Shown here: positions 2,910 through 58,732 of the stretch, in pieces
Numbering within the stretch: position 1 is the stretch's first letter
Layout of the letters: each line of letters opens with the position of its first letter
Source of the DNA: Terriglobia bacterium
Lineage (GTDB): Bacteria; Acidobacteriota; Thermoanaerobaculia; Thermoanaerobaculales; Thermoanaerobaculaceae
DNA length: 64,000 bases
Direction: 5' to 3'
Assembly: GCA_020073245.1 (NCBI GenBank)
Contig: JAIQFQ010000014.1
Location: 1-64,000 of the forward strand
The notes under the pieces: model-generated
Seen by the model: the letters and a program-made list of their open reading frames with translations, nothing else
Databases searched by the model: none
Told to the model about the DNA's origin: nothing
Position numbers and translations under genes: made by a program

Positions 2910-2983
2910 GCCAGACCATTCTAAACGGTGCCGACGGGCGGAGGGGCAGAGGAACGTTGCCCGTCCCGGAATTTGTCGGGGAC

Positions 2984-3154
2984 TGGCAAAACGTCAAACG
3001 TAAAACGTCAAAGGGAAGACGAGAGAGGTGAGAGGGAAGACGGGAGAGAAACGACGTCAGGCCTTCGCCGTGGGTTGTCTTCCTTTTACCTTCTTCCTTA
3101 AGCTCCGTCTCAGGTCTTCCGTTTAGCGTTTGACCTCTTCCCTTTCACAATTCA
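2984..3154. repeat. Fold-back heptad repeat, ACGTCAA/AGGGAAG class
   Basis: The left arm (about 2988-3052) reads as consecutive 7-bp units: ACGTCAA, ACGTAAA, ACGTCAA, AGGGAAG, ACGAGAG, AGGTGAG, AGGGAAG, ACGGGAG. The right arm (about 3077-3150) is pyrimidine-rich and complementary in class but not in exact sequence. It occupies most of the 303-bp gap between the divergently oriented GTPase gene and the small membrane protein gene. No other feature is seen in that gap apart from a TAGACT hexamer near 3200 that could be a -10 box. Confidence 0.8.
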
Positions 3155-3212
3155 CCTCGGTTGCTTCCGGCGGAACCTCGAGCGCTCCAGATCCCAGGGT
3201 AGACTGCGCGAA

Positions 3213-17273: not shown

Positions 17274-17411
17274 CACCGCAGAGGAGCAGAGGAACGGGTG
17301 TGCAGAGGAGCACGAGACAAGACAACGGGCGCTGAGTTGCCTCTCCTCGGCCCCTCGGCTCCTCTGCCCCTCTGCTGTCTTCTCCGGTGCCCGGCCCCCG
17401 GTGCCCGGTCC
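17274..17411. repeat. Fold-back octad repeat, GCAGAGGA class
   Basis: The left arm (17278-17335) reads as 8-bp units GCAGAGGA, GCAGAGGA, ACGGGTGT, GCAGAGGA, GCACGAGA. The right arm (17336-17392) is the pyrimidine complement with CTCCTCTGCCCCTCTGC. Adjoining it (17390-17411) is a GGTGCCCGG duplicate. It ends exactly at the stop codon of the malate dehydrogenase remnant. Confidence 0.78.
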
Positions 17412-31921: not shown

Positions 31922-31928
31922 TGAGAAG

Positions 31929-38177: not shown

Positions 38178-38330
38178 GAAGCGTTCGGAGGTTCGAAGGG
38201 TCGAAGGCTCAGACAAGGGAGACGGAAGAAGGAAGAGGGGACAGAACGCTACATCCCAGAGACCGGCAACGGGCTTCCGCACCCCTTCTTCGGTTGCCCT
38301 CTACCTTCCACCCTCTGCCCGTTCCCGTCG
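38178..38330. repeat. Fold-back repeat, GTTCGAAG plus GGAAGAA classes
   Basis: The left arm carries GTTCGGAGGTTCGAAGGGTC (octad GTTCGAAG class) then GACGGAAGAAGGAAGAGG. The right arm (about 38284-38325) has CTTCTTCGG and CTCTACCTTCCACCCTCTG. It lies just upstream of mutM. Confidence 0.65.
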
Positions 38331-38668: not shown

Positions 38669-38956
38669 ACTGGTGCGGCAGGGCGGGGACCTGACGCGTG
38701 AAGCGCGCCGCCGAGAGTGGGCCGGATGCTAGGCGCGCGAGCCCGTCGCACCGGAGTGTAGCCGGAGGCACCATGAGGACGCGTGGCCGCGATCCGCAAC
38801 GCGACAGGCGAGACGCGGCTCTGCTGCGGCGAGCGGGGGCTCAGGGGGTCCAGAGTGGCCGGGCGGGCGGTGGAGCGGCCGCGGGATCCCCCGCCCGAAT
38901 GGATGGTCCGACTTCGGCGGCGCCAGAAAGTCAGATCAAGGCCAACCGCAGGAACG

Positions 38957-40775: not shown

Positions 40776-40861
40776 TGGCGCTCCCTTCAGCCTGGACCAT
40801 TCGTGGGGGTTCGTCGCGAGAACGCGCAGCTGGCTGAGATGGTGGGCGCACGTAGGGGTGA

Positions 40862-40900
40862 GGAGCCGAGACGTATCCTCTGCGATACGTCGCAGGCTCC
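40862..40900. repeat. Interrupted hairpin between fabD and the acyl-CoA dehydrogenase gene
   Basis: GGAGCC...GACGTATC, loop CTCTGC, GATACGTC...GGCTCC: an 8-bp inner stem and a 6-bp outer stem separated by small internal loops. It lies in the 194-bp gap inside the fab operon. It could be an mRNA-processing or attenuating structure. Confidence 0.55.
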
Positions 40901-40969
40901 GAGCCCCGAGTACGCCCGCCAGATCGGCCAGATCCGCGTTTGCAGCAGAACCCTCATGAATAGTCCAGC

Positions 40970-42127
40970 CTAACTCCGCTTCGCCGCGCGTTTGATCAGC
41001 GCCTGAGCGATCTCGTTGCGCTGGATCTGGTTTGTCCCCTCGTAGATCTGCAGGATCTTTGCGTCACGCAACATCTTCTCGACCGGGTAGTCGCGCATGT
41101 AGCCGTAGCCGCCGAACACCTGCACCGCGTCGAGCGTCACCGACATCGCAACGTCGGAGCCGATCACCTTGGCCATCGAGGACTCCATCGCGAAATCCTC
41201 GCTGCCGCCGTCGATCGTGCGCGCCACGGCGTAGAGCAGCGCGCGCGCCGTCTCGACGCGCATCGCCATATCCGCCAGCATGTGGCCGACCGCCTGGAAC
41301 GCCGCGATCGGTTTGCCGAACTGCTTGCGTTCGCTTGCATACGCGACCGCCGCCTCGAGCGCGGCAGCCGCCAGCCCCACGCCCTGGGCGCCCACGGCCA
41401 CTCGCGCCCGCTCGAGAGTTCGCATGGTGACCAGGAAGCCGACGCCCTCGCGGCCGATCCGGTTCGTCGCCGCGACGCGGACATTGTCAAAGATAACCTC
41501 GCGGGTCGACGAGGCGCGGATGCCCAGCTTGTCCTCACGCTTGCCGAACGACAGCCCGGGTGCGCCCTTCTCGACGAGAAACGCGGAGGCGCCGCGAGCG
41601 CCTCGCGACGGGTCCGTCATCGCGATCACGGCGTAGAAGTCGGCCTCGCCGCCGTTCGTGATCCACTGCTTGGTGCCGTTGATGACGTACGAGTCGCCGT
41701 CCTTGACGGCCCGGGTGCGCATCGAGAACGCGTCGGACCCGGCCTCCGCCTCGGTGAGGCAGAACGCGGCGATCCACTCGCCGGTCGCGACCTTTGGGAG
41801 AACGCGGGCCTTCATCGCGTCGTCGCCGGAGATCAGTACCGGGAGGGTGCCGAGGGCGATCGCGCCGTACGTTGTCGAGACTCCCAGACATGCCTTCGAG
41901 AGCTCCTCGGTGACCAGGCAGAGGTCCATGATGCTGCCGCCCAGGCCGCCGTGCTCCTCGGGGACAAAGACCCCCATGAGGCCTGCGTCTCCCATCGTCT
42001 TCACGATGTCGCGCGGGAAGATCTCCTCGGCGTCGAGCTTGGCGCGCGCCGGCATGATCTCGCCCTCGGCGATCTGCCTCGTCAGCGTGACGATGTCCTT
42101 CTGAGTGTCGGTGAGGAAGTGATTCAT
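40970..42127 (-). CDS. Acyl-CoA dehydrogenase
   Basis: A 385-residue FAD enzyme that makes the alpha,beta-double bond of acyl-CoAs. CLTEAEAGSDAFSM and WITNGGEADFY are the FAD/substrate motifs; QVFGGYGYMRDYPVEKMLRD and IYEGTNQIQRNEIA contain the catalytic Glu (position of the Glu in YEGT). AGGAGG precedes ATG 42127. Its place between fabH and fabD, inside a fatty-acid synthesis operon, is unusual for a beta-oxidation-type enzyme. It may serve a specialised acyl chain, lipid desaturation or CoA-linked branched-chain metabolism. Confidence 0.92.
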   Translation of the reverse strand: MNHFLTDTQKDIVTLTRQIAEGEIMPARAKLDAEEIFPRDIVKTMGDAGLMGVFVPEEHGGLGGSIMDLCLVTEELSKACLGVSTTYGAIALGTLPVLISGDDAMKARVLPKVATGEWIAAFCLTEAEAGSDAFSMRTRAVKDGDSYVINGTKQWITNGGEADFYAVIAMTDPSRGARGASAFLVEKGAPGLSFGKREDKLGIRASSTREVIFDNVRVAATNRIGREGVGFLVTMRTLERARVAVGAQGVGLAAAALEAAVAYASERKQFGKPIAAFQAVGHMLADMAMRVETARALLYAVARTIDGGSEDFAMESSMAKVIGSDVAMSVTLDAVQVFGGYGYMRDYPVEKMLRDAKILQIYEGTNQIQRNEIAQALIKRAAKRS

Positions 42128-51137: not shown

Positions 51138-52508
51138 TTGGGTGAGGCCATGAAAGGCCTGGCTCGCGCGCCGGTTGCACCGGACCCGGCGCAGCCGAGG
51201 CGTTCGCAGGGAGGCGGCGGGGTGCTGCGGGCCATGGGCTCACGCAACTACCGGCTCTTCATGGGTGGGCAGGGGATCTCGCTCATCGGCACATGGATCC
51301 AGCAGATCGCCCTCGCCTGGCTCGTCTACACCCTGACGCGCTCGGCGTTCCTGCTGGGCCTTGTCGGTTTCTGCTCCCAGATCGGCTCCTTCGTCCTGGC
51401 GCCGCTCGCAGGCGTCGTAGCCGACCGGTTCAACAAGCACCGTCTGTTGATCGGCACCCAGTCGTTCGCGATGCTCCAGGCGTTCGCGATCGGAGTCCTG
51501 GTCCTCTCGCACACCGTCGCTGTGTGGCACATCGTCGCCCTCTCCCTCTTCATCAGCATCGTAAACGCCTTCGACATGCCGACCCGGCACTCTTTCCTGG
51601 TCGAGATGATCGAGAACCGCGACGACCTTCCGAACGCCATCGCGCTCAACTCGTCGCTCGTCAACGGGGCGCGGCTGGTCGGACCCGCCGTAGCGGGACT
51701 TCTCATCACGGCGGTGGGCGAGGGTGCCTGCTTCATGATCAACGCCGCAAGCTACCTGGCCGTTATCGCGGCGCTGCTCGCGATGAGGATCGCGCCGCGC
51801 GAGAAACCCCGTGAGGAGCGCCGGATCTGGCACGAACTGCTCGAAGGCTTCGTCTACACATTCGGGTTCGCTCCCACCAGGGACATCCTCGGCCTGCTGG
51901 CGCTCGCAAGCGTGGCCGCCATGCCCTACTCGACCCTGATGCCGATCTTCGCCGCGCAGATCCTCCACGGCGGGGCCAGCACGCTCGGCTTCCTTTCAGG
52001 AGCTGCTGGCGTGGGCGCCCTCGCAGGGGCGATCGTGCTCGCGTACCGCAACACGGTGCTGGGTCTCGGGCGCTGGATACCGGCGGCATGTGCCGGTTTC
52101 GGGTTGTCGCTGATCGGGTTTTCGCTCTCCAGTCGGCTCCCACTCTCGCTGCTGATGCTCGTGGGAGCGGGGCTCACGATGATCACGCATCTGGCCGCCT
52201 CCAACACGATCCTGCAGACGGTTGTCGAGGACCGGTGGCGCGGGCGTGTGATGAGCTTCTACTCGATGGCATTCGTGGGCACGGCGCCGTTCGGCAGCCT
52301 GCTTGCCGGCTCCCTCGCGCACCACATCGGGGCGCCACGCACGGTCATGCTCGGGGGGATCGTCTGCATTCTGGGCGCCGCGGTGTTCGCGGCGCGGCTG
52401 CCGGTGCTGCGGCGCCTCATTCGCCCCATCTACCGGCAGCGTGGGATCATCCCTGAGGTCGCCAGCGGGATCGCCGCGGCCGCCGAAGGAAGCACCGGGA
52501 GACAGTGA
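51138..52508 (+). CDS. MFS transporter, EntS/MFS_3-type exporter
   Basis: About 456 residues with 12 hydrophobic helices. NYRLFMGGQGISLIGTWIQQ at the N-terminus and VADRFNKHR in the loop between TM2 and TM3 place it in the MFS_3 (enterobactin-exporter-like) group. The substrate is unknown. The start may be TTG 51138 (GGTGAGG four bases upstream) or ATG 51150. It follows the metal transporter by 65 nt; co-expression is possible. Confidence 0.85.
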   Translation: MGEAMKGLARAPVAPDPAQPRRSQGGGGVLRAMGSRNYRLFMGGQGISLIGTWIQQIALAWLVYTLTRSAFLLGLVGFCSQIGSFVLAPLAGVVADRFNKHRLLIGTQSFAMLQAFAIGVLVLSHTVAVWHIVALSLFISIVNAFDMPTRHSFLVEMIENRDDLPNAIALNSSLVNGARLVGPAVAGLLITAVGEGACFMINAASYLAVIAALLAMRIAPREKPREERRIWHELLEGFVYTFGFAPTRDILGLLALASVAAMPYSTLMPIFAAQILHGGASTLGFLSGAAGVGALAGAIVLAYRNTVLGLGRWIPAACAGFGLSLIGFSLSSRLPLSLLMLVGAGLTMITHLAASNTILQTVVEDRWRGRVMSFYSMAFVGTAPFGSLLAGSLAHHIGAPRTVMLGGIVCILGAAVFAARLPVLRRLIRPIYRQRGIIPEVASGIAAAAEGSTGRQ

Positions 52509-52664
52509 AGCGACCAGCGATGTCGTCAGTGGTCGGCGGTCCGTGACCCGAGCGACACAACGGGCGAGCCTTGAAAGAGCGTGTGAAGCGCTCCGCAAGA
52601 AGAAGCGCCTCACAGGCCGCGGGTGAGGGACCTGCTCGAGGGGTCCCTCCGCCGGCCGGCAGGT

Positions 52665-53090
52665 TCAGTCGGCGGTGTGGGATGTCGGGGACATCGCGTT
52701 GTCGAGCGCCGCGAAGAAATCCTGGTACGGCTTCGGCTCGAGTATCGGCGCGTCCTCGTACTGCGCGTTCGCGCGGACCACGACCTGCTGCTTGCCCCGC
52801 GTCTCCACCGTGACGGTCATGCGCAAGGCGTACTTCTCGAGCCTCATGGCCGCAACCGATCCGACGGCGGAGTCAACCTTCTCGATCGCGAACCCAAGAT
52901 CCTGAAGAGTCGCCATGACGGAACGAAGCACCTGCTCTCGGTTGCCGGTATCGAACGCACGTGCTTGTACACTGGGCAGCTGCGTCCGGTCCGAGGCGGA
53001 GGCGGTCACCGCAGGCGCCGACACGCAACCTGCCAGCACACCAATCGCCGCGATGCCAACAACGCAAAGTGAGGTCTTGTGCACGTTCAT
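52665..53090 (-). CDS. Small lipoprotein, unknown function (paralogue 1)
   Basis: A 141-residue predicted lipoprotein; hydrophobic signal with lipobox LAGC (SLCVVGIAAIGVLAGCVS). The mature part is alpha/beta-like, with GNREQVLRSVMATLQDLGFA and a C-terminal YQDFFAALDNAM. That ending closely resembles the upstream gene's YFDFFDKLSKAV, and both contain a 'D-LG-x-x-(I/V)-(E/D)' segment, so they are tandem paralogues. The start overlaps the upstream stop as ATGA. Confidence 0.8.
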   Translation of the reverse strand: MNVHKTSLCVVGIAAIGVLAGCVSAPAVTASASDRTQLPSVQARAFDTGNREQVLRSVMATLQDLGFAIEKVDSAVGSVAAMRLEKYALRMTVTVETRGKQQVVVRANAQYEDAPILEPKPYQDFFAALDNAMSPTSHTAD

Positions 53091-53632
53091 ATCTCTCGCG
53101 CCTCCACGGAGACGGCCTTCGAAAGCTTGTCGAAGAAGTCGAAGTAGACCTGGGGATCGACAACCGCCTCGCGCGCGGTCACCTCGTTCCGCGTATTCCA
53201 GATGATGAGCTGGAAGGTAACCCGGACAAGCTGGTTGTTGGGTTGATCCGCGGCTTGCGGTCTCACGAGGATCGAGGCCCTGACAACCTGTTCCTTCGCA
53301 ACCGGAGCCGCACCGCCGGCCAGGAGGGACCCGGTGGCCGGACTGGCGTCCTGTTGCGCGCTTCGTACGCTGCGCTTCTTCGAACCGACCACCAATCCCA
53401 GCTTCGTTTCGCTCTCGTCCACGTTGTATCCCAGGTCTCGAAGCACGCCTGCAACGCCGGCCACCAGCTTCGGCTCCTCGATCCCCGTGAACCGACGGGT
53501 CTCAAGCTGGCGATCCTGAAGGGACGAGGGGGTCAAGACCAGAGCATCCCTGGGGATGCTCGCAGCACAGCCGAGAACGAGGAGCGCCAGCGGCGAAAGT
53601 GCCAGCACTACACCACGAATCCGAAGTCTCAT
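53087..53632 (-). CDS. Small lipoprotein, unknown function (paralogue 2)
   Basis: 181 residues from ATG 53632 (GGAG 7-8 nt upstream); lipobox LVLGC after a hydrophobic signal. The mature domain includes VAGVAGVLRDLGYNVDESET, a conserved two-strand region with NQLVRVTFQLIIWN, and the YFDFFDKLSKAV ending shared with its partner. No known family recognised; the pair probably forms a complex at the outer membrane or periplasmic face. Confidence 0.8.
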   Translation of the reverse strand: MRLRIRGVVLALSPLALLVLGCAASIPRDALVLTPSSLQDRQLETRRFTGIEEPKLVAGVAGVLRDLGYNVDESETKLGLVVGSKKRSVRSAQQDASPATGSLLAGGAAPVAKEQVVRASILVRPQAADQPNNQLVRVTFQLIIWNTRNEVTAREAVVDPQVYFDFFDKLSKAVSVEAREI

Positions 53633-54010
53633 CCATATCTCCTTGAAGCGAGCCGCGTGGTCCGCGAGATCGCTCACCTTTCTGCCGTCGTAGAACGTGT
53701 TGATCGCTGCGAGAAATTGCAGTCCCGTCGAACGTGGACCTTAGCCTTGCGACGCAACAGATGTCAACATGAACACTTCGGTATTGCCCGACGAATACGA
53801 TCCCCTTGTGGTGGGCTCGTTGAGGTCGTGTACCTGGTGCTGATCGTCGATCTCGCCGTCGCGCGGGAGCGGTGATAACATTCCGACGTTGCTGGCAAAC
53901 GAACGTCTCAGTTTCGGCGCGACACGCGATGGAAAGACTTCCGGTCACCCGAGTGATCGGCTCGGATTTTCCACCCATCTAGCCTCGATGCCGCAGCCAT
54001 TGGAGACGAC
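53633..54010. other. Divergent intergenic region without recognised features
   Basis: 378 bp between the lipoprotein pair (minus) and the repeat protein gene (plus). No consistent reading frame. GGAGACGAC at 54002-54010 is the ribosome-binding site of the plus gene. Promoters must lie here, but I cannot identify them with confidence. Confidence 0.4.
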
Positions 54011-56344
54011 ATGGTGCTGAACATGACGCGGAGCCGCAATCGTCGGAGCCCGGTGGCTGCACTTGGCATGCTCATCGCTGCCTCGCTGACCGGATTTGCA
54101 GACGCTGAGGGTCTGGCCGCACTTAAACTGAACGGTGAGGTCGAAGTCCATCCCTGGATTGGGAGAACGCTCGGCGTCGCGAGTTCCGGCGGGGCATTTG
54201 CCACCTTCCACGGCCAGGTTAGCCGGGCGGATGCCCTTTTCGGGAGCACCGTTCCCGAATCCGACCGAACGGCCTCGCGGTCGTCGAGCGACCCGGCGGG
54301 CGCCTCGCCCGATCTCCCGGCGGCAACCGCCACTGTCGCGAACGATGCCGCCCAGACGTTCCTCACATTCACGAGTGACCAGGGGGACTATGTCGGCCAG
54401 GGCCAGGCGTGGACATTGACCCCCGCCGACGGGACGATCACCGCCCCGGCCGCTGCCGGTAGCGTCGGAGTGCATTTCACGGGCTCGACGAGGTGGGACC
54501 TCTACTTTGCAGCGCCGGCAGGCTCTGCGCTCGTGCCTGGCATGTACGAGGGCGCGACCCGGGATGGATTCCAATCGCCGACAACACCGGGCCTGGAAAT
54601 CAGTGGCGAAGGGCGCGGATGCAACACGCTCACCGGACGGTTCGTCGTCCTCGACGCACAGTACTCTCCGACCGGAGACGTACAGAGTCTCGCGATCGAC
54701 TTTGAGCAGCACTGCGAGGGGCTGCCCCCAGCGCTCTTCGGGTCGGTCCGCTTCAACTCGGTCGTCGCCGTCGAGCCTCGCATCTCGGTGGCGCCCGCCG
54801 CCGCGTACGAGGGCGACGGCGAGCCGGTCAGCCTCGGCTTCTGGGTGTCGCTCTCCGAGCGCGCCGGTGTGCCGGTGTCGGTCGACTATACGACGGTGGA
54901 CCGGTCCGCGCACGCCGGCACCGACTACACGGCGGTGAGCGGCACCGTGACGTTCGCACCCGGGGTGACCGCGATCCAGGTGGGCGTTCCGGTGCTCGGC
55001 AACACGGTTGCCCAACCTGACCGCACGCTGGCGCTCTTGTTGAGCAACCCTACGGGCGCAGAGCTCGCGTCCGCGACGGCGACCGGCACCATCCTGGACG
55101 ACGACGCGGGCAGGACGCTCCTCGCTTTCGACAGCGAAGTGGGGGACTGGGTCGGTCAGGGTCAGGCGTGGACGCTGACGCCCCTCGACGGGCCGATCAC
55201 GGCGTCAACCGGGAGCAATTCCGTCTCGGTGCAGTTCCGAGGCTCCGAGTGGTGGGAGCTCTACTTCGCGGCGCCGGGCGGAGCCGTGCTGGTACCCGGC
55301 GTCTACGAGGGCGCGACCCGGTGGGGTTTCCAGTCGCCGATCGGGCCAGGCCTTGACGTCAGCGGCGCCTCGCGCGGATGCAACACGCTGACCGGACGCT
55401 TCGTCGTTCTCGACGCGCAGTACTCCCTGACGGGCGCCCCTCAGAACCTCGCGATCGATTTCGAGCAGCACTGCGACGGCGTGCCCGCGGCGCTCTTCGG
55501 GTCGGTCCGCTTCAATTCGGTTGTCTCGGTCGAACCCCGCGTCTCGGTGGCGCCCGCCGCCGCGTACGAGGGCGACGGCGAGCCGGTCAGCCTCGGCTTC
55601 TGGGTCTCGCTCTCCGAGCGCGCCGGCGCGCCGGTGTCGGTCGACTACACGACGGTGGATCAATCCGCGCACGCCGGCACCGACTATACGGCGGCGAGCG
55701 GCACCGTGACATTCGCGCCCGGGGTGACGGCGATCCGGGTCGACGTGCCGGTGCTCGGGAACACGGTGGCCCAACCGAGCCGCACGCTCGCGTTGTCGCT
55801 GAGCAATCCGGTGGGCGCCCCGCTCGCCTTCCCGACGGCGACCGGCACGGTCCTGGACGACGATGCCGCTCGGACGTTCCTCGTCTTCGACAGCGACCCG
55901 GGGGACTCCATCGGCGAGGGCCGGGCGTGGACGCTGGCGCCCCTCGACGGGAGGATCACGGTTTCGGCCGCCACCGGCAGCGCCGGAGTGCATTTCTATG
56001 GTTCCACGTGGTGGGACCTCTACTTTGCAGCGCCGGCAGGCACTGCGCTCGCGCCTGGCTTGTACGAAGGCGCGACCCGGGATGGGTTCCAATCGCCGAC
56101 AACACCGGGCCTGGAAATCAGTGGCGACGGCCGCGGCTGCAACACGCTCACCGGACGTTTCCTCGTCCTCGACGCGCAGTACTCTCCGACCGGCGAGGTG
56201 CAGAGCCTCGCGATCGACTTCGAGCAGCATTGCGAGGGGCTTCCGCCGGCGCTCTTCGGGTCGGTCCGCTTCAACTCGATGCTCTCCGCGAACCCTCGCG
56301 GCACCTTCGAGCGGCATGCCCGGCGACATCTAGGCCGCATCTAA
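54011..56344 (+). CDS. Secreted Calx-beta repeat protein with 253-residue duplications
   Basis: 777 residues with a signal peptide (PVAALGMLIAASLTGFADA). Architecture A-B-A-B-A. Module A (about 140 residues, three copies near 54355-54768, 55114-55527 and 55873-56286) contains WWDLYFAAPAG, YEGATRDGFQSP, GRGCNTLTGRFVVLDAQYS and AIDFEQHC. Module B (two copies) is a Calx-beta domain (VSVDYTTVD, HAGTDYTAVSGTVTFAPGVT). The repeat period is 759 bp and whole stretches over 50 bp are identical between copies, so the expansion is recent. The C-terminus (MLSANPRGTFERHARRHLGR) departs abruptly from the repeat and the gene is followed by a large fold-back element, suggesting truncation. Confidence 0.82.
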   Translation: MVLNMTRSRNRRSPVAALGMLIAASLTGFADAEGLAALKLNGEVEVHPWIGRTLGVASSGGAFATFHGQVSRADALFGSTVPESDRTASRSSSDPAGASPDLPAATATVANDAAQTFLTFTSDQGDYVGQGQAWTLTPADGTITAPAAAGSVGVHFTGSTRWDLYFAAPAGSALVPGMYEGATRDGFQSPTTPGLEISGEGRGCNTLTGRFVVLDAQYSPTGDVQSLAIDFEQHCEGLPPALFGSVRFNSVVAVEPRISVAPAAAYEGDGEPVSLGFWVSLSERAGVPVSVDYTTVDRSAHAGTDYTAVSGTVTFAPGVTAIQVGVPVLGNTVAQPDRTLALLLSNPTGAELASATATGTILDDDAGRTLLAFDSEVGDWVGQGQAWTLTPLDGPITASTGSNSVSVQFRGSEWWELYFAAPGGAVLVPGVYEGATRWGFQSPIGPGLDVSGASRGCNTLTGRFVVLDAQYSLTGAPQNLAIDFEQHCDGVPAALFGSVRFNSVVSVEPRVSVAPAAAYEGDGEPVSLGFWVSLSERAGAPVSVDYTTVDQSAHAGTDYTAASGTVTFAPGVTAIRVDVPVLGNTVAQPSRTLALSLSNPVGAPLAFPTATGTVLDDDAARTFLVFDSDPGDSIGEGRAWTLAPLDGRITVSAATGSAGVHFYGSTWWDLYFAAPAGTALAPGLYEGATRDGFQSPTTPGLEISGDGRGCNTLTGRFLVLDAQYSPTGEVQSLAIDFEQHCEGLPPALFGSVRFNSMLSANPRGTFERHARRHLGRI

Positions 56345-56351
56345 TCGGGGC

Positions 56352-56645
56352 ATGGGGTACGGCAGAGACGCGCAGAGGAGCAGAGGGGCTTAGGGGCAGA
56401 GGAGCTAAGAACGTTCGAAGGTTCCAAGGTTCGACGAAGAAGGGTAAAAGGTCAAACGCAAAAGGGCAAAGAGAAGAAACGACGCGAAACGGCGCGGCCT
56501 CTATCGGGTTGAGTCTTCCGTTTGACCTCTTCCGTTTCACGTTTGACTCGTCCTGCTTCATTGGGAACTTGCGGACATTCGGACCTGTGAACCTACGAAC
56601 GGCTTCTGCTCCTCTGCTCCCCTGCTCCTCCGCGCCTCCGCAGAT
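56352..56645. repeat. Composite nested fold-back element (three repeat classes)
   Basis: From outside to centre the left half carries GCAGAGGA octads (56360-56405), GTTCGAAG octads (56411-56435) and ACGTCAA-like heptads (56440-56478). The right half carries the same three classes as complements in reverse order: CTTCCGTTTGACCTCTTCCG (56514-56550), GGACCTGTGAACCTACGAAC (56580-56600) and CTGCTCCTCTGCTCCCCTGC (about 56607-56640). It fills the gap between the repeat protein and the next convergent gene. Confidence 0.8.
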
Positions 56646-56647
56646 CC

Positions 56648-57472
56648 CTATTTGCGGAGAGCGTCCGAGGTGGTCTGCTTGATTTTTGCCCAATCGATCT
56701 GGGAGCCCCATGCGGAGTGCGGGATCGCGAACACGCCGAGCGTGACGATCGCCGCGGCGAGCACTGTACCCCGCGCCCGGCGCCCGCCGCGGAGAGCCCA
56801 CACCGCGAGGATCCAGGCCAGCACCGCGAGCAGGGTCTTGTTGTCGGTGAGGTCCCACCCGTACGGTGCGCCCGCCCACCACTCGCCGAATGCGAACTTC
56901 TGCACGGCGGGTCCCAGCATGAACCCGCCGACGACGAACGACGCCAGGGCGGCCCGGGCACAGCGCCGTGGCGTCCCGTCGGATGCGAGCGCCTCGATCC
57001 CGGCCCGCGAAGCGAAGAGCAGTCCCAGGAACATCGCCGTAATGTGGGGGATCAGGATCCACGGCGGAACGTCGCCCCTGAAGCGGGTGATCGCCGGCCG
57101 CCGAGGGAAGATGGCCTGTTCGTCCCCGTGCCGCAGCCGCACCTGGTATTCGAGCTTCCCCGCCGCGGGCTGCTTCGGGAGGGTCGTGTGCAGATCCTGC
57201 CCCTCGCGCTGCAGCTCCGTGATCTGCCAGGGGTCGGAGGTCGGGTACCGACGCCACACGACCTCGCCGCTCACGCCGGCGTCGGGAGCCCGGACCGTGA
57301 TCGGCTGGTCCGAGGCGATGCCGTGCGAGCGCTGGAGGGTCATCGCGATACGCTGACCCCCGATCGACACCGTCCCGCGCGCCGGGTACGTCGGCCCGCT
57401 CACGCGCTGCCATACGAGCGAGCCGAGGGTGATCGCCACAGCAAGCGCCCAGCGGCACGCCGTACCAGTCAC
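56648..57472 (-). CDS. Membrane protein of unknown function
   Basis: 274 residues from GTG 57472 (GGAGG 5 nt upstream; overlaps the yitT-like stop as GTGA). One N-terminal signal/TM helix, an extracytoplasmic beta-rich domain of about 110 residues (VVWRRYPTSDPWQ), then four TM helices. FAFGEWWAGAPYGWDLTDNK between helices is a motif I associate with an uncharacterised family common in Bacteroidota. No enzymatic motif. Confidence 0.75.
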   Translation of the reverse strand: MTGTACRWALAVAITLGSLVWQRVSGPTYPARGTVSIGGQRIAMTLQRSHGIASDQPITVRAPDAGVSGEVVWRRYPTSDPWQITELQREGQDLHTTLPKQPAAGKLEYQVRLRHGDEQAIFPRRPAITRFRGDVPPWILIPHITAMFLGLLFASRAGIEALASDGTPRRCARAALASFVVGGFMLGPAVQKFAFGEWWAGAPYGWDLTDNKTLLAVLAWILAVWALRGGRRARGTVLAAAIVTLGVFAIPHSAWGSQIDWAKIKQTTSDALRK

Positions 57473-58353
57473 AGCGCCTCCTCTCCGGCGTGGGGCGCGA
57501 AACCCTCCCCCAGTACCTCTTGCGCCGGCGTGATCGCGACGAACGCGGCTCGGTCGACGTGCGCCACGAGCCTCTTGAGACGGCCGACCTCGTGCGGGGT
57601 CACGACGACGTACAGCACCGGCCGTTCCTCACCCGTGTAGCCGCCCTGCCCGTGCAGCACCGTGACCCCGCGGCCGAGCTTCCCGAGCACGGCCTCGCGC
57701 ACGGCGTCGGGTTTCTGGCTGATGATCAGCGCGGCGCGCGCCGCGGAGAATCCTGTCTGAACCACATCGAGCACGCGGGCCGACACGAACGCGAGCGCCA
57801 GGGCGACCATCACGGCCTCGGCGCCGAAGAGAAACGCGGCCCCGGCGAAGATCGCGACGTTCATGGCGAGAAGCGCCTGCCCGATCCCCACCCCCAGGTA
57901 CCGGTGGGCGAGCCTGGCCAGGATGTCGGTGCCGCCCGTCGTCCCCCGTCCCCGGAACACCAGGCCCATGCCGAAGCCGTCAAGGAGACCTCCGTAGCAG
58001 ATGACCAGCAGGCGGTCGTGCGTCGGAGGCACCAGGAACGGCGCCGTGAGGTCGATGCCTATCGAGAGCACCATCACGGACACCACCGTGCGCACGAAGA
58101 AACGGATCCCGCCGGCGAACCGCCAGCCAAGCCAGAGCAGCGGCAGGTTGAGCAGCAGCACCACCATGCCGACAGGAGTTTTGAACAGGTGGTGCGCGAT
58201 GATCGAGAGGCCAGTGACGCCACCGGAGACCACGTTGTTGGGCACGAAGAAGAGGTTCGTGCCGGCCGCGACCATGAGAGAGCCGGCGATGATCTGGGCG
58301 TAGTCGAACGCAACGCCCCACCGTCCCGTCGGTGCCACGACCGGCAGTTTCAT
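57469..58353 (-). CDS. YitT family membrane protein with DUF2179 domain
   Basis: 294 residues. Five to six TM helices with PNNVVSGGVTGLSIIAHHLF and GRGTTGGTDILARL, the DUF161/YitT signatures, then a cytoplasmic DUF2179 domain (LHGQGGYTGEERPVLYVVV) that is ferredoxin-like and may bind a ligand. Transport substrate unknown. ATG 58353 lacks a clear ribosome-binding site. It is translationally coupled to the membrane protein downstream. Confidence 0.88.
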   Translation of the reverse strand: MKLPVVAPTGRWGVAFDYAQIIAGSLMVAAGTNLFFVPNNVVSGGVTGLSIIAHHLFKTPVGMVVLLLNLPLLWLGWRFAGGIRFFVRTVVSVMVLSIGIDLTAPFLVPPTHDRLLVICYGGLLDGFGMGLVFRGRGTTGGTDILARLAHRYLGVGIGQALLAMNVAIFAGAAFLFGAEAVMVALALAFVSARVLDVVQTGFSAARAALIISQKPDAVREAVLGKLGRGVTVLHGQGGYTGEERPVLYVVVTPHEVGRLKRLVAHVDRAAFVAITPAQEVLGEGFAPHAGEEAL

Positions 58354-58438
58354 GGGGTTGCATGGTGTCACGAAGCCGCGGCGTTGCCAAGCTTTGCCGT
58401 TCGCTGGGCTTTTGCTACCCTCTTCCCCGGAGGGCGCC

Positions 58439-58732
58439 ATGCTCGAAGCAGTGGTCCTGATCAACGTCAAGCCGGGCCAGCTCCACGTCGTGGCGGATGC
58501 GCTGCTGGAGCGGGAGGGAGTCCACGAGCTGTACTCGGTTGCGGGCGCCTACGATCTCGTTGCGGTCCTGCGCACCTCCCGCAACGAGCGGCTCGAGGAG
58601 TTGGTGACAGGCGAGATCGCCGCCCTCCCGGGCGTCGAGCGAACGACGACGCTGGTCGCGTTCCGCTGCCTCTCCCGCCGCGAGGCCGACGGCACGTTCT
58701 CGGTCGGTTTCGACCCCAAATCCGCCGGGTAG
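58439..58732 (+). CDS. Stand-alone Lrp/AsnC effector-binding (RAM) domain protein
   Basis: A 97-residue protein corresponding to the C-terminal ligand-binding domain of Lrp/AsnC regulators without the DNA-binding helix-turn-helix: AVVLINVKPGQLHVVADALL, VAGAYDLVAVLRT and ELVTGEIAALPGVERTTTLV. Such proteins form rings and bind amino acids, and may modulate full-length Lrp proteins. GGAGGG precedes ATG 58439. Divergent from yitT with an 85-bp shared promoter region. Confidence 0.88.
   Translation: MLEAVVLINVKPGQLHVVADALLEREGVHELYSVAGAYDLVAVLRTSRNERLEELVTGEIAALPGVERTTTLVAFRCLSRREADGTFSVGFDPKSAG

Follow-up and report, generated by a model that had tools for sequence, protein, structure and literature searches.

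The element at 56352-56645 of the 64,000-nucleotide stretch of DNA analysed here (the window) is best explained as a member of a family of dispersed fold-backs built from short tandem words, of the type of cyanobacterial STRR and of the Xanthomonas repeats, which are nested in a preferred order, are tolerated or used as boundaries at the 3' ends of genes, and would be replaced in the manner of cassettes. A probability of about 0.6 is given to this explanation as a whole, in which we infer both the function and the mechanism of replacement. Taken separately, the existence of a dispersed family of word fold-backs is very likely, and its replacement slot by slot is probable.

Structure of the composite element

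The element is an intergenic composite fold-back of about 275 bp in which three word classes are stacked, with class B (GCAGAGGA) outermost, class C (GTTCGAAG) in the middle and class D (AAAGGTC/AAACGTC) innermost. The classes run inward as B-C-D over 56366-56475, and their complements are found in mirror order, D'-C'-B', over 56513-56641. On the plus-oriented left side, the outer layer consists of B octads with the consensus GCAGRGGN (56366-56405, word score 26.4, with TRF period 8 at 56372-56405), the second of C octads, GTTCRNAS (56409-56433, word score 17.4), and the inner of D heptads, AAASGKN (56440-56475, word score 20.8); the D-core model R1 matches 56439-56549 with 76.9 bits. An apical spacer or loop (56476-56512) separates the D arms, and the minus-oriented complements follow as D (56513-56547, word score 21.6), C (56565-56601, word score 21.4) and B (56605-56641, word score 26.6, with TRF period 8 at 56605-56638).

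An earlier note on this DNA had described three repeat classes nested concentrically, a description borne out by both the word arms and the hairpin statistics. In fact, the local hairpin alignment of the element (arms 56367-56487 / 56504-56638) reached a score of 31, while 200 dinucleotide-preserving shuffles gave a mean of 10.5 and a maximum of 16, so that arm pairing is significant against such controls. When the window was scanned in 531 overlapping 360-base pieces, just this element and an unrelated inverted repeat at 40789-40971 exceeded the maximum of one shuffled window. In addition, folding of 56340-56660 as a single strand gave z values of -5.9 for DNA and of -5.4 and -5.8 for RNA on the two strands, equalled by none of 100 shuffles. 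No match to Rfam was obtained in the window at the gathering threshold, and neither a promoter-like nor a terminator-like site was found at 56300-56720; the element is thus not a canonical intrinsic terminator.

The inverted repeat at 40789-40971, whose arms are about 88 nt long and 6 nt apart, is the strongest hairpin of the window. The orthologous gap in the congener used for comparison below (G008) measures just 10 nt, which suggests that one lineage gained the repeat by insertion or that the other lost it.

History of the site

Two genes converge on the element, the left one (54011-56344, plus strand) encoding Calx-beta domains (Pfam PF03160, E 3.8e-30) and the right one (56648-57472, minus strand) a protein of about 274 aa without Pfam family. 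The window belongs to a soil Acidobacteriota genome of 4.38 Mb in 89 contigs (G000), and it was compared with its congener G008, the MAG Acidobacteria bacterium isolate fen_297 (PMLC01000123.1). In the latter, the orthologue of the right gene (G008:C139:21187-22002, 83% at the amino acid level) also has an element at its 3' end (G008:C139:20876-21180), and this orthologous gap carries the same three layers B-C-D, plus an extra repeat in the C' region. The B-C-D composite is older than the split between both genomes. Outside the word arms, 59 of 103 positions of the element diverge from G008.

The Calx-beta gene does not adjoin the element in G008. There, C139:19568-20855 matches window 51223-52510 and C139:20876-23250 matches window 56364-58714, the element following an MFS gene at 20 nt, while some 3.85 kb (52511-56363, two small genes and the Calx-beta gene) lie between the MFS gene and the element in G000 alone. 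Since 20 nt in one genome correspond to about 3.85 kb in the other, the element edge is an indel breakpoint too. In two further congeners, G004 and G006 (orthologues 68% identical), a short gap beside a different gene carries no word array, and in G015, from another genus, a fold-back of a different, TGATCGG-like heptad lies at the same gene end.

Word classes and abundance

The element gave 51 partial matches in its own genome. The unbiased sample comprised 464 kb, namely the window and 20 further pieces of 20 kb each, selected by position (L093-L112); the own loci L011-L045 were picked by their match to the query element, and the G008 loci L119-L138 were also mostly picked by match. In the 464 kb, tandem arrays of period 7 numbered 49 against 3.0 in shuffled sequence, and those of period 8 numbered 12 against 2.2. 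Periods 14 and 16 were also in excess, as multiples of 7 and 8, and so were the multiples of 3, which coding DNA would account for; none of the remaining periods was raised. De novo consensus words fell into about nine classes, whose lettering is our own: besides B, C and D, with the consensus words given above, these are A (AGAGTKN), E (AGASGKN), F (GGGTCCR), G (NACRGTY), H (GTGGNTC) and I (CAGGGGT).

At a word score of at least 14, the unbiased sample contained 105 arms (8 in one shuffle), 8 of them deep inside called genes. These included 36 clusters of at least two arms, the query element not counted, from which roughly 350 multi-arm elements per genome are extrapolated. Many copies are decayed or one-armed, the F array at 31922 being a single arm. 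Such counts are lower bounds, since word elements lie near contig ends in the G008 contigs C67, C74, C49, C84, C132, C155 and C39 and the assemblies seem to break there. The earlier claim that each of the three classes also occurs alone in the window is correct for B (17278-17375), to the right of which lies an F array. The C array at 38182, however, is associated with a fold-back of class E, and the heptads at 2978-3157 are preceded on the left by a B array.

Two other repetitive arrangements were observed. At L110:18206-18716 a B fold-back unit is present twice in direct orientation; the two copies, both of which contain internal repeats, start about 275 nt from each other. Moreover, a dispersed repeat that is not built from words, some 230 nt long, lies at window 38677-38927. 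It is found at 28 places in G008 at E <= 1e-12, and its own-genome copy at L110:17964-18198 matches several of the same places.

Polarity and order of the layers

Among the own loci, 74 class occurrences had both orientations, and the purine-richer word was the 5' one ('+' before '-') in all but one mixed tandem cluster (A 10, B 7, C 11, D 26, E 12, G 3, H 2 and I 2, where for G just consistency counts, since its sign was set after seeing the data). The same polarity was seen in 29 of 30 cases in G008. As regards the order of the layers, octads lay outside heptads in ratios of 45:4 for all own loci, 10:1 for the unbiased set and 12:1 for G008, in every case with the query element excluded; given that the targeted own loci had been found via the query, 10:1 is the clean figure. 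With the query element included, as it also was in the polarity counts, B lay outside C in 9:2 own and 19:3 G008 cases, and F outside the other classes in 8:0 and 1:0, respectively. Exact mirror order, counting D and E as one, was found in 9 of the 10 own elements that have two or more layers on each side and in 2 of 8 in G008, where the misses were mostly due to C being absent on one side. The preferred stacking places F, B and C outside and A, D or E innermost.

Descent of the copies and independence of the arms

The composites descend from other composites, as units. The best element-to-element BLAST matches averaged 65.2 bits, against 51.3 (sd 0.8, maximum 53.0) after within-class shuffling of words between arms (81 elements, 25 shuffles, tandem cluster L110:18206-18716 excluded), and 15 C/D composites and 27 D cores could be aligned end to end, which together argue for copying as units. 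Longer strings of words were common to different loci above expectation for own A, B and G and for G008 B and D, not for C. The best pairs are 74-81% identical, and there is thus no sign of recent bursts. An alternative in which words are written independently of one another, from a lexicon, was considered and dropped, because similarity at the level of the element exceeds the word-shuffle null.

The agreement between the left and right arms of an element did not exceed that between same-class arms taken from different elements (8 class tests, p 0.62-0.99; own pairs A 10, B 9, C 10, D 26 and E 12, G008 pairs B 15, C 6 and D 5). In the 27 aligned D cores, 76.9% of cells were paired (76.1% after shuffling), covariation was 0.119 against 0.111 (90 of 500 shuffles), and RNAalifold predicted no consensus pair; a function relying on exact hairpin pairing is therefore not supported. 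It had also been proposed that the layers could be dated by the divergence between their arms, the inner ones being expected to be younger if insertion is into the loop. No outer-to-inner gradient of arm identity appeared in 17 multi-layer elements, the query giving 27/35 for B, 18/22 for C and 24/32 for D, and the layers cannot be dated in this way.

Recent local tandem duplication of words was likewise set aside, since in most classes a word resembles its neighbours no more than it resembles the words of other arrays (own genome: A p.96, B.98, C.53, D.85, E.13, F.07, H.11, I.79; G008: A.97, B 1.0, C.98, D.66, E.19, G.40), the exception being own G (p.004). Identical neighbours even fell below expectation in own A (5 vs 10.5), own D (4 vs 10.9) and G008 B (2 vs 17.6), as if perfect word doublets had been purged in these classes.

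The position tables show that within each word some positions are near-constant and others near-free. In two in-register orthologous elements (56352 and 39690), the divergence between G000 and G008 amounted to 21 of 151 constant and 34 of 116 variable positions by the own annotation, and to 13 of 130 and 35 of 112 by the G008 annotation; four-fold sites of ten neighbouring genes differed at 923 of 2484, and element-free gaps diverged by 0.07 to 0.44. As constant positions diverge less than variable ones and than four-fold sites, and the pairs lack covariation, the words look constrained by sequence and not by pairing, a constraint seen in two elements only and in words that were found through consensus similarity.

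Orthologous gaps

The comparison of gene neighbourhoods revealed that slots are kept while words change. Among 43 neighbourhoods conserved between G000 and G008, where the G000 side consisted of the window and of L103, L107 and L110, all three picked as element-rich in their own genome, words were present in both genomes in 14, in neither in 27, and in G000 only and G008 only in 1 each (Fisher 2.8e-9). In the 24 of these gaps that were 60 nt or longer, the corresponding figures were 12 both, 11 neither, 0 G000 only and 1 G008 only; two of the 14 doubly occupied neighbourhoods are F arrays in overlapping gene ends. The core class differed in 10 of the 12 long doubly occupied gaps, with changes such as A vs B, E vs B, D vs B, F vs G and E vs A, and was the same in 2 (39788, class G; L103:10891, class E). 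In the alignments, homology of the flanks reaches or nears the element edges and the words inside are unrelated. At some gaps, part of the element is shared: at 2910-3212 the left B array is common to both genomes and the core is D/E vs A; at L013/L129, C is common and the core is D vs B; and at 1437-1934 a C remnant is common and the core is A vs B. The pairs L013/L129 and L043/L127, found by matches in both genomes, are outside the occupancy counts.

Replacement at or inside existing elements fits these counts and alignments better than independent gain and loss. Old elements would be replaced in place, by insertion of a new fold-back into the existing one and loss of the old, or, alternatively, by ectopic repair from another copy following hairpin-induced breakage. 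The earlier note had explained the nesting by stepwise insertion of one fold-back into the loop of another. This survives in part: the order of layers recurs genome-wide, and an outer array shared with a differing core at three gaps is what insertion or replacement predicts. Nevertheless, since the layers are ancestral and the composites appear to have been copied whole, most layer orders have been inherited and not assembled afresh at each site. Nor is the relative order of events, which the single element had been expected to reveal, readable from it, all three layers being already present in the ancestor shared with G008.

Position at gene ends and putative role

Word elements occupied 12 of 35 convergent, 22 of 120 tandem and 5 of 50 divergent gaps of at least 60 nt, the occupancy of convergent gaps differing from that of divergent ones at p 0.012 and from that of tandem ones at p 0.06. 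In tandem gaps the median distance was 9 nt to the upstream stop and 62 nt to the downstream start, and 14 of 17 elements lay nearer to the stop, a preference that was not significant (Wilcoxon p 0.098); 6 of 37 elements, overlapping or at an edge, were excluded from the context counts. Among 205 gaps, a simple search found U-tract terminators in 8, and it found one in the 39 that bear words.

The convergent enrichment, the stop-side position and the rarity of U-tract terminators favour a boundary role at gene ends over protein-read arrays and over plain tolerance. The elements would be located at gene ends that either tolerate a boundary or require one and, ordinary U-tract terminators being rare in this genome, would act as structured 3' ends, either as a bidirectional stop or insulator or as a stabiliser of the transcript. 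Such a putative role in stop, insulation or transcript protection is put forward tentatively, at somewhat less than even odds; the presence of elements in five divergent gaps as well speaks against it.

Known systems and spread among relatives

A close likeness is found in Xanthomonas (Rehm et al. 2015, PMC4692102), where intergenic heptads GGGANTN form inverted repeats in 70 and 75 convergent pairs, lie nearer to the ORF on their 5' side (28 nt) than to the one downstream (160 nt), and are found more often in convergent than in divergent positions. These GGGAATC repeats share with layer D and with classes A, E and G the degenerate heptads with fixed and variable positions and the convergent arrays, and their poor conservation between species and their 3'-end position are also traits of the elements described here (PMC4692102). 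In contrast, Xanthomonas has one class and heptads only, while here about nine classes of octads and heptads are nested concentrically in a preferred order, and the slots remain filled even as one class gives way to another. Since layers B and C have period 8, the whole composite is not a plain Xanthomonas-type heptamer pair, and no class with the word GGGAATC was present among the arrays found.

Cyanobacterial STRR are tandem 7-bp intergenic words able to form hairpins, for which termination or transcript stability has been proposed (PMC2670836); heptads of Calothrix are cited in PMC4692102. In being intergenic tandem 7-bp repeats capable of forming hairpins they resemble the heptad layers of our elements, but they have other words and, in the part of PMC2670836 consulted, mostly a single class and no reported nested order. 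The TAACTGA heptamers of the Beggiatoaceae are also genome-wide intergenic heptads with related words mixed in, arranged as direct repeats just upstream of start codons, with one inverted case (PMC4679880).

The element at 56352-56645 bears no GTAG/CGTC tag at its ends, by eye; in REP/BIME and REPIN sequences such a tag adjoins a palindrome of 20-40 nt. REP/BIME and REPIN sequences are associated with 3' ends. They are, as here, dispersed extragenic fold-backs in composite arrangements; unlike the present elements, they are not made of tandem words and carry tags and RAYT partners (PMC3733652, PMC2817692, PMC3116915). The ends of our elements are variable, as outer layers and numbers of words differ between copies. 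MITE have fixed terminal inverted repeats and a target-site duplication, and among the orthologous gaps compared there was no precise pair of an empty and a filled site.

With regard to relatives, the D-core sequence model had matches in the own genome and in all eight congeners (8 to at least 93 each, best E 1.9e-6 to 3.6e-25); in other genera matches were few and weak, with best E of 1.4e-5 or worse, G020 having the most (at least 70). These figures, limited by the 92 candidates scored per genome and with both strands counted, are not copy numbers. The pattern GCAGAGGNGCAGAGGNGCAG was present in 10 of 297 genomes of the phylum. In G223, from another family of the phylum, B octads surround a fold-back of TTTGTCA/TGACAAA-like heptads (L147:1257-1538), heptads which we take to resemble cyanobacterial STRR words. 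As the same nesting is repeated there with a different heptad, nesting may reach beyond the genus; as that heptad has its pyrimidine-rich word 5', the purine-first rule may fail outside it. Moreover, 8 of 28 unselected loci from other genera around the orthologous gene, 3' or 5' of it, carry period-7 arrays of other words (L069, L075, L086, L087, L089-L092), so that each genus seems to have its own vocabulary. A search for these words in open-access full text returned 0 papers, and broader searches of the same literature gave just the relatives named above. In the literature found, neither multi-class nesting with an order rule nor slot-faithful replacement of classes has been described.

Competing explanations

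The elements might be neutral or selfish, that is, slippage-prone arrays and fold-backs in permissive gene-end gaps, whose concordance between genomes would measure tolerance. Their concentration at gene ends, away from promoters, and the many decayed or one-armed copies agree with this, as does the period, since in many bacteria long simple repeats most often have period 7 (Mrazek et al. 2007, cited after the part of PMC4679880 consulted); the slot concordance on which our preferred explanation draws could, moreover, come from a few permissive sites kept saturated. However, of the 35 convergent gaps that measure 60 nt or more, 23 are empty, so that permissive gaps are unsaturated, and yet own-only and G008-only occupancy were found in 0 and 1 of the 24 long gaps. 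Recent slippage also predicts like neighbouring words, which most classes lack (own G, p 0.004, excepted), and identical neighbours were below expectation in own A and D and in G008 B (2 vs 17.6 in G008 B). This explanation is considered somewhat unlikely. If, on the other hand, the elements were paired arrays of putative protein-binding sites, with a convergent geometry for bridging, looping or insulation and an incidental hairpin, one would understand why constant positions diverge less than variable ones (21/151 vs 34/116) while base pairs lack covariation, why polarity is fixed in every class and the period strictly 7 or 8, and why the arms are independent. Such a reading is unlikely in view of the nine or so specificities, or the one very tolerant factor, that about nine classes would need, and of the class switch at 10 of 12 orthologous slots, by which specificity is not retained at a given gene.

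Hairpin-templated copying (quasi-palindrome correction), by which elements would grow outward or be maintained, was the other process to which the nesting had been attributed in the earlier note. It would account for arms that are complementary in word class and, near the loop, roughly in word order. This process is made highly improbable by the lack of any excess agreement between arms in the 8 class tests, of covariation in the 27 D cores and of a gradient between layers. A MITE or a REP/REPIN-type element moved by a transposase or RAYT would also be dispersed, fold-back, intergenic and copied as a unit; here, nevertheless, the ends are not fixed, near-identical copies are lacking and no tag was seen by eye. 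Mobilisation by RAYT was considered and rejected, as Y1_Tnp (PF01797) showed no association with words, being found in 30 of 39 relatives irrespective of them and as one partial match in the own genome. Movement of this kind is accordingly held to be improbable.

Significance

Fold-backs of short words were already known in cyanobacteria and Xanthomonas, and what is added here is a set of many interchangeable classes with an order rule. Since composites are copied as units, the nesting at one locus is not to be read as a sequence of local events. Going further, the genus could keep slots that require a convergent word fold-back, with a dedicated or opportunistic process swapping whole cassettes and the words, constrained in sequence independently of pairing, being read by something, a proposal that we regard as quite doubtful. 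If it is true, the elements would represent slot-faithful gene-end boundaries with interchangeable cassettes, an arrangement undescribed for bacterial repeats in the literature found. In any case, a species pair in which slots are occupied and words replaced offers a direct comparative test between tolerated junk, 3'-end signals and mobile cassettes.
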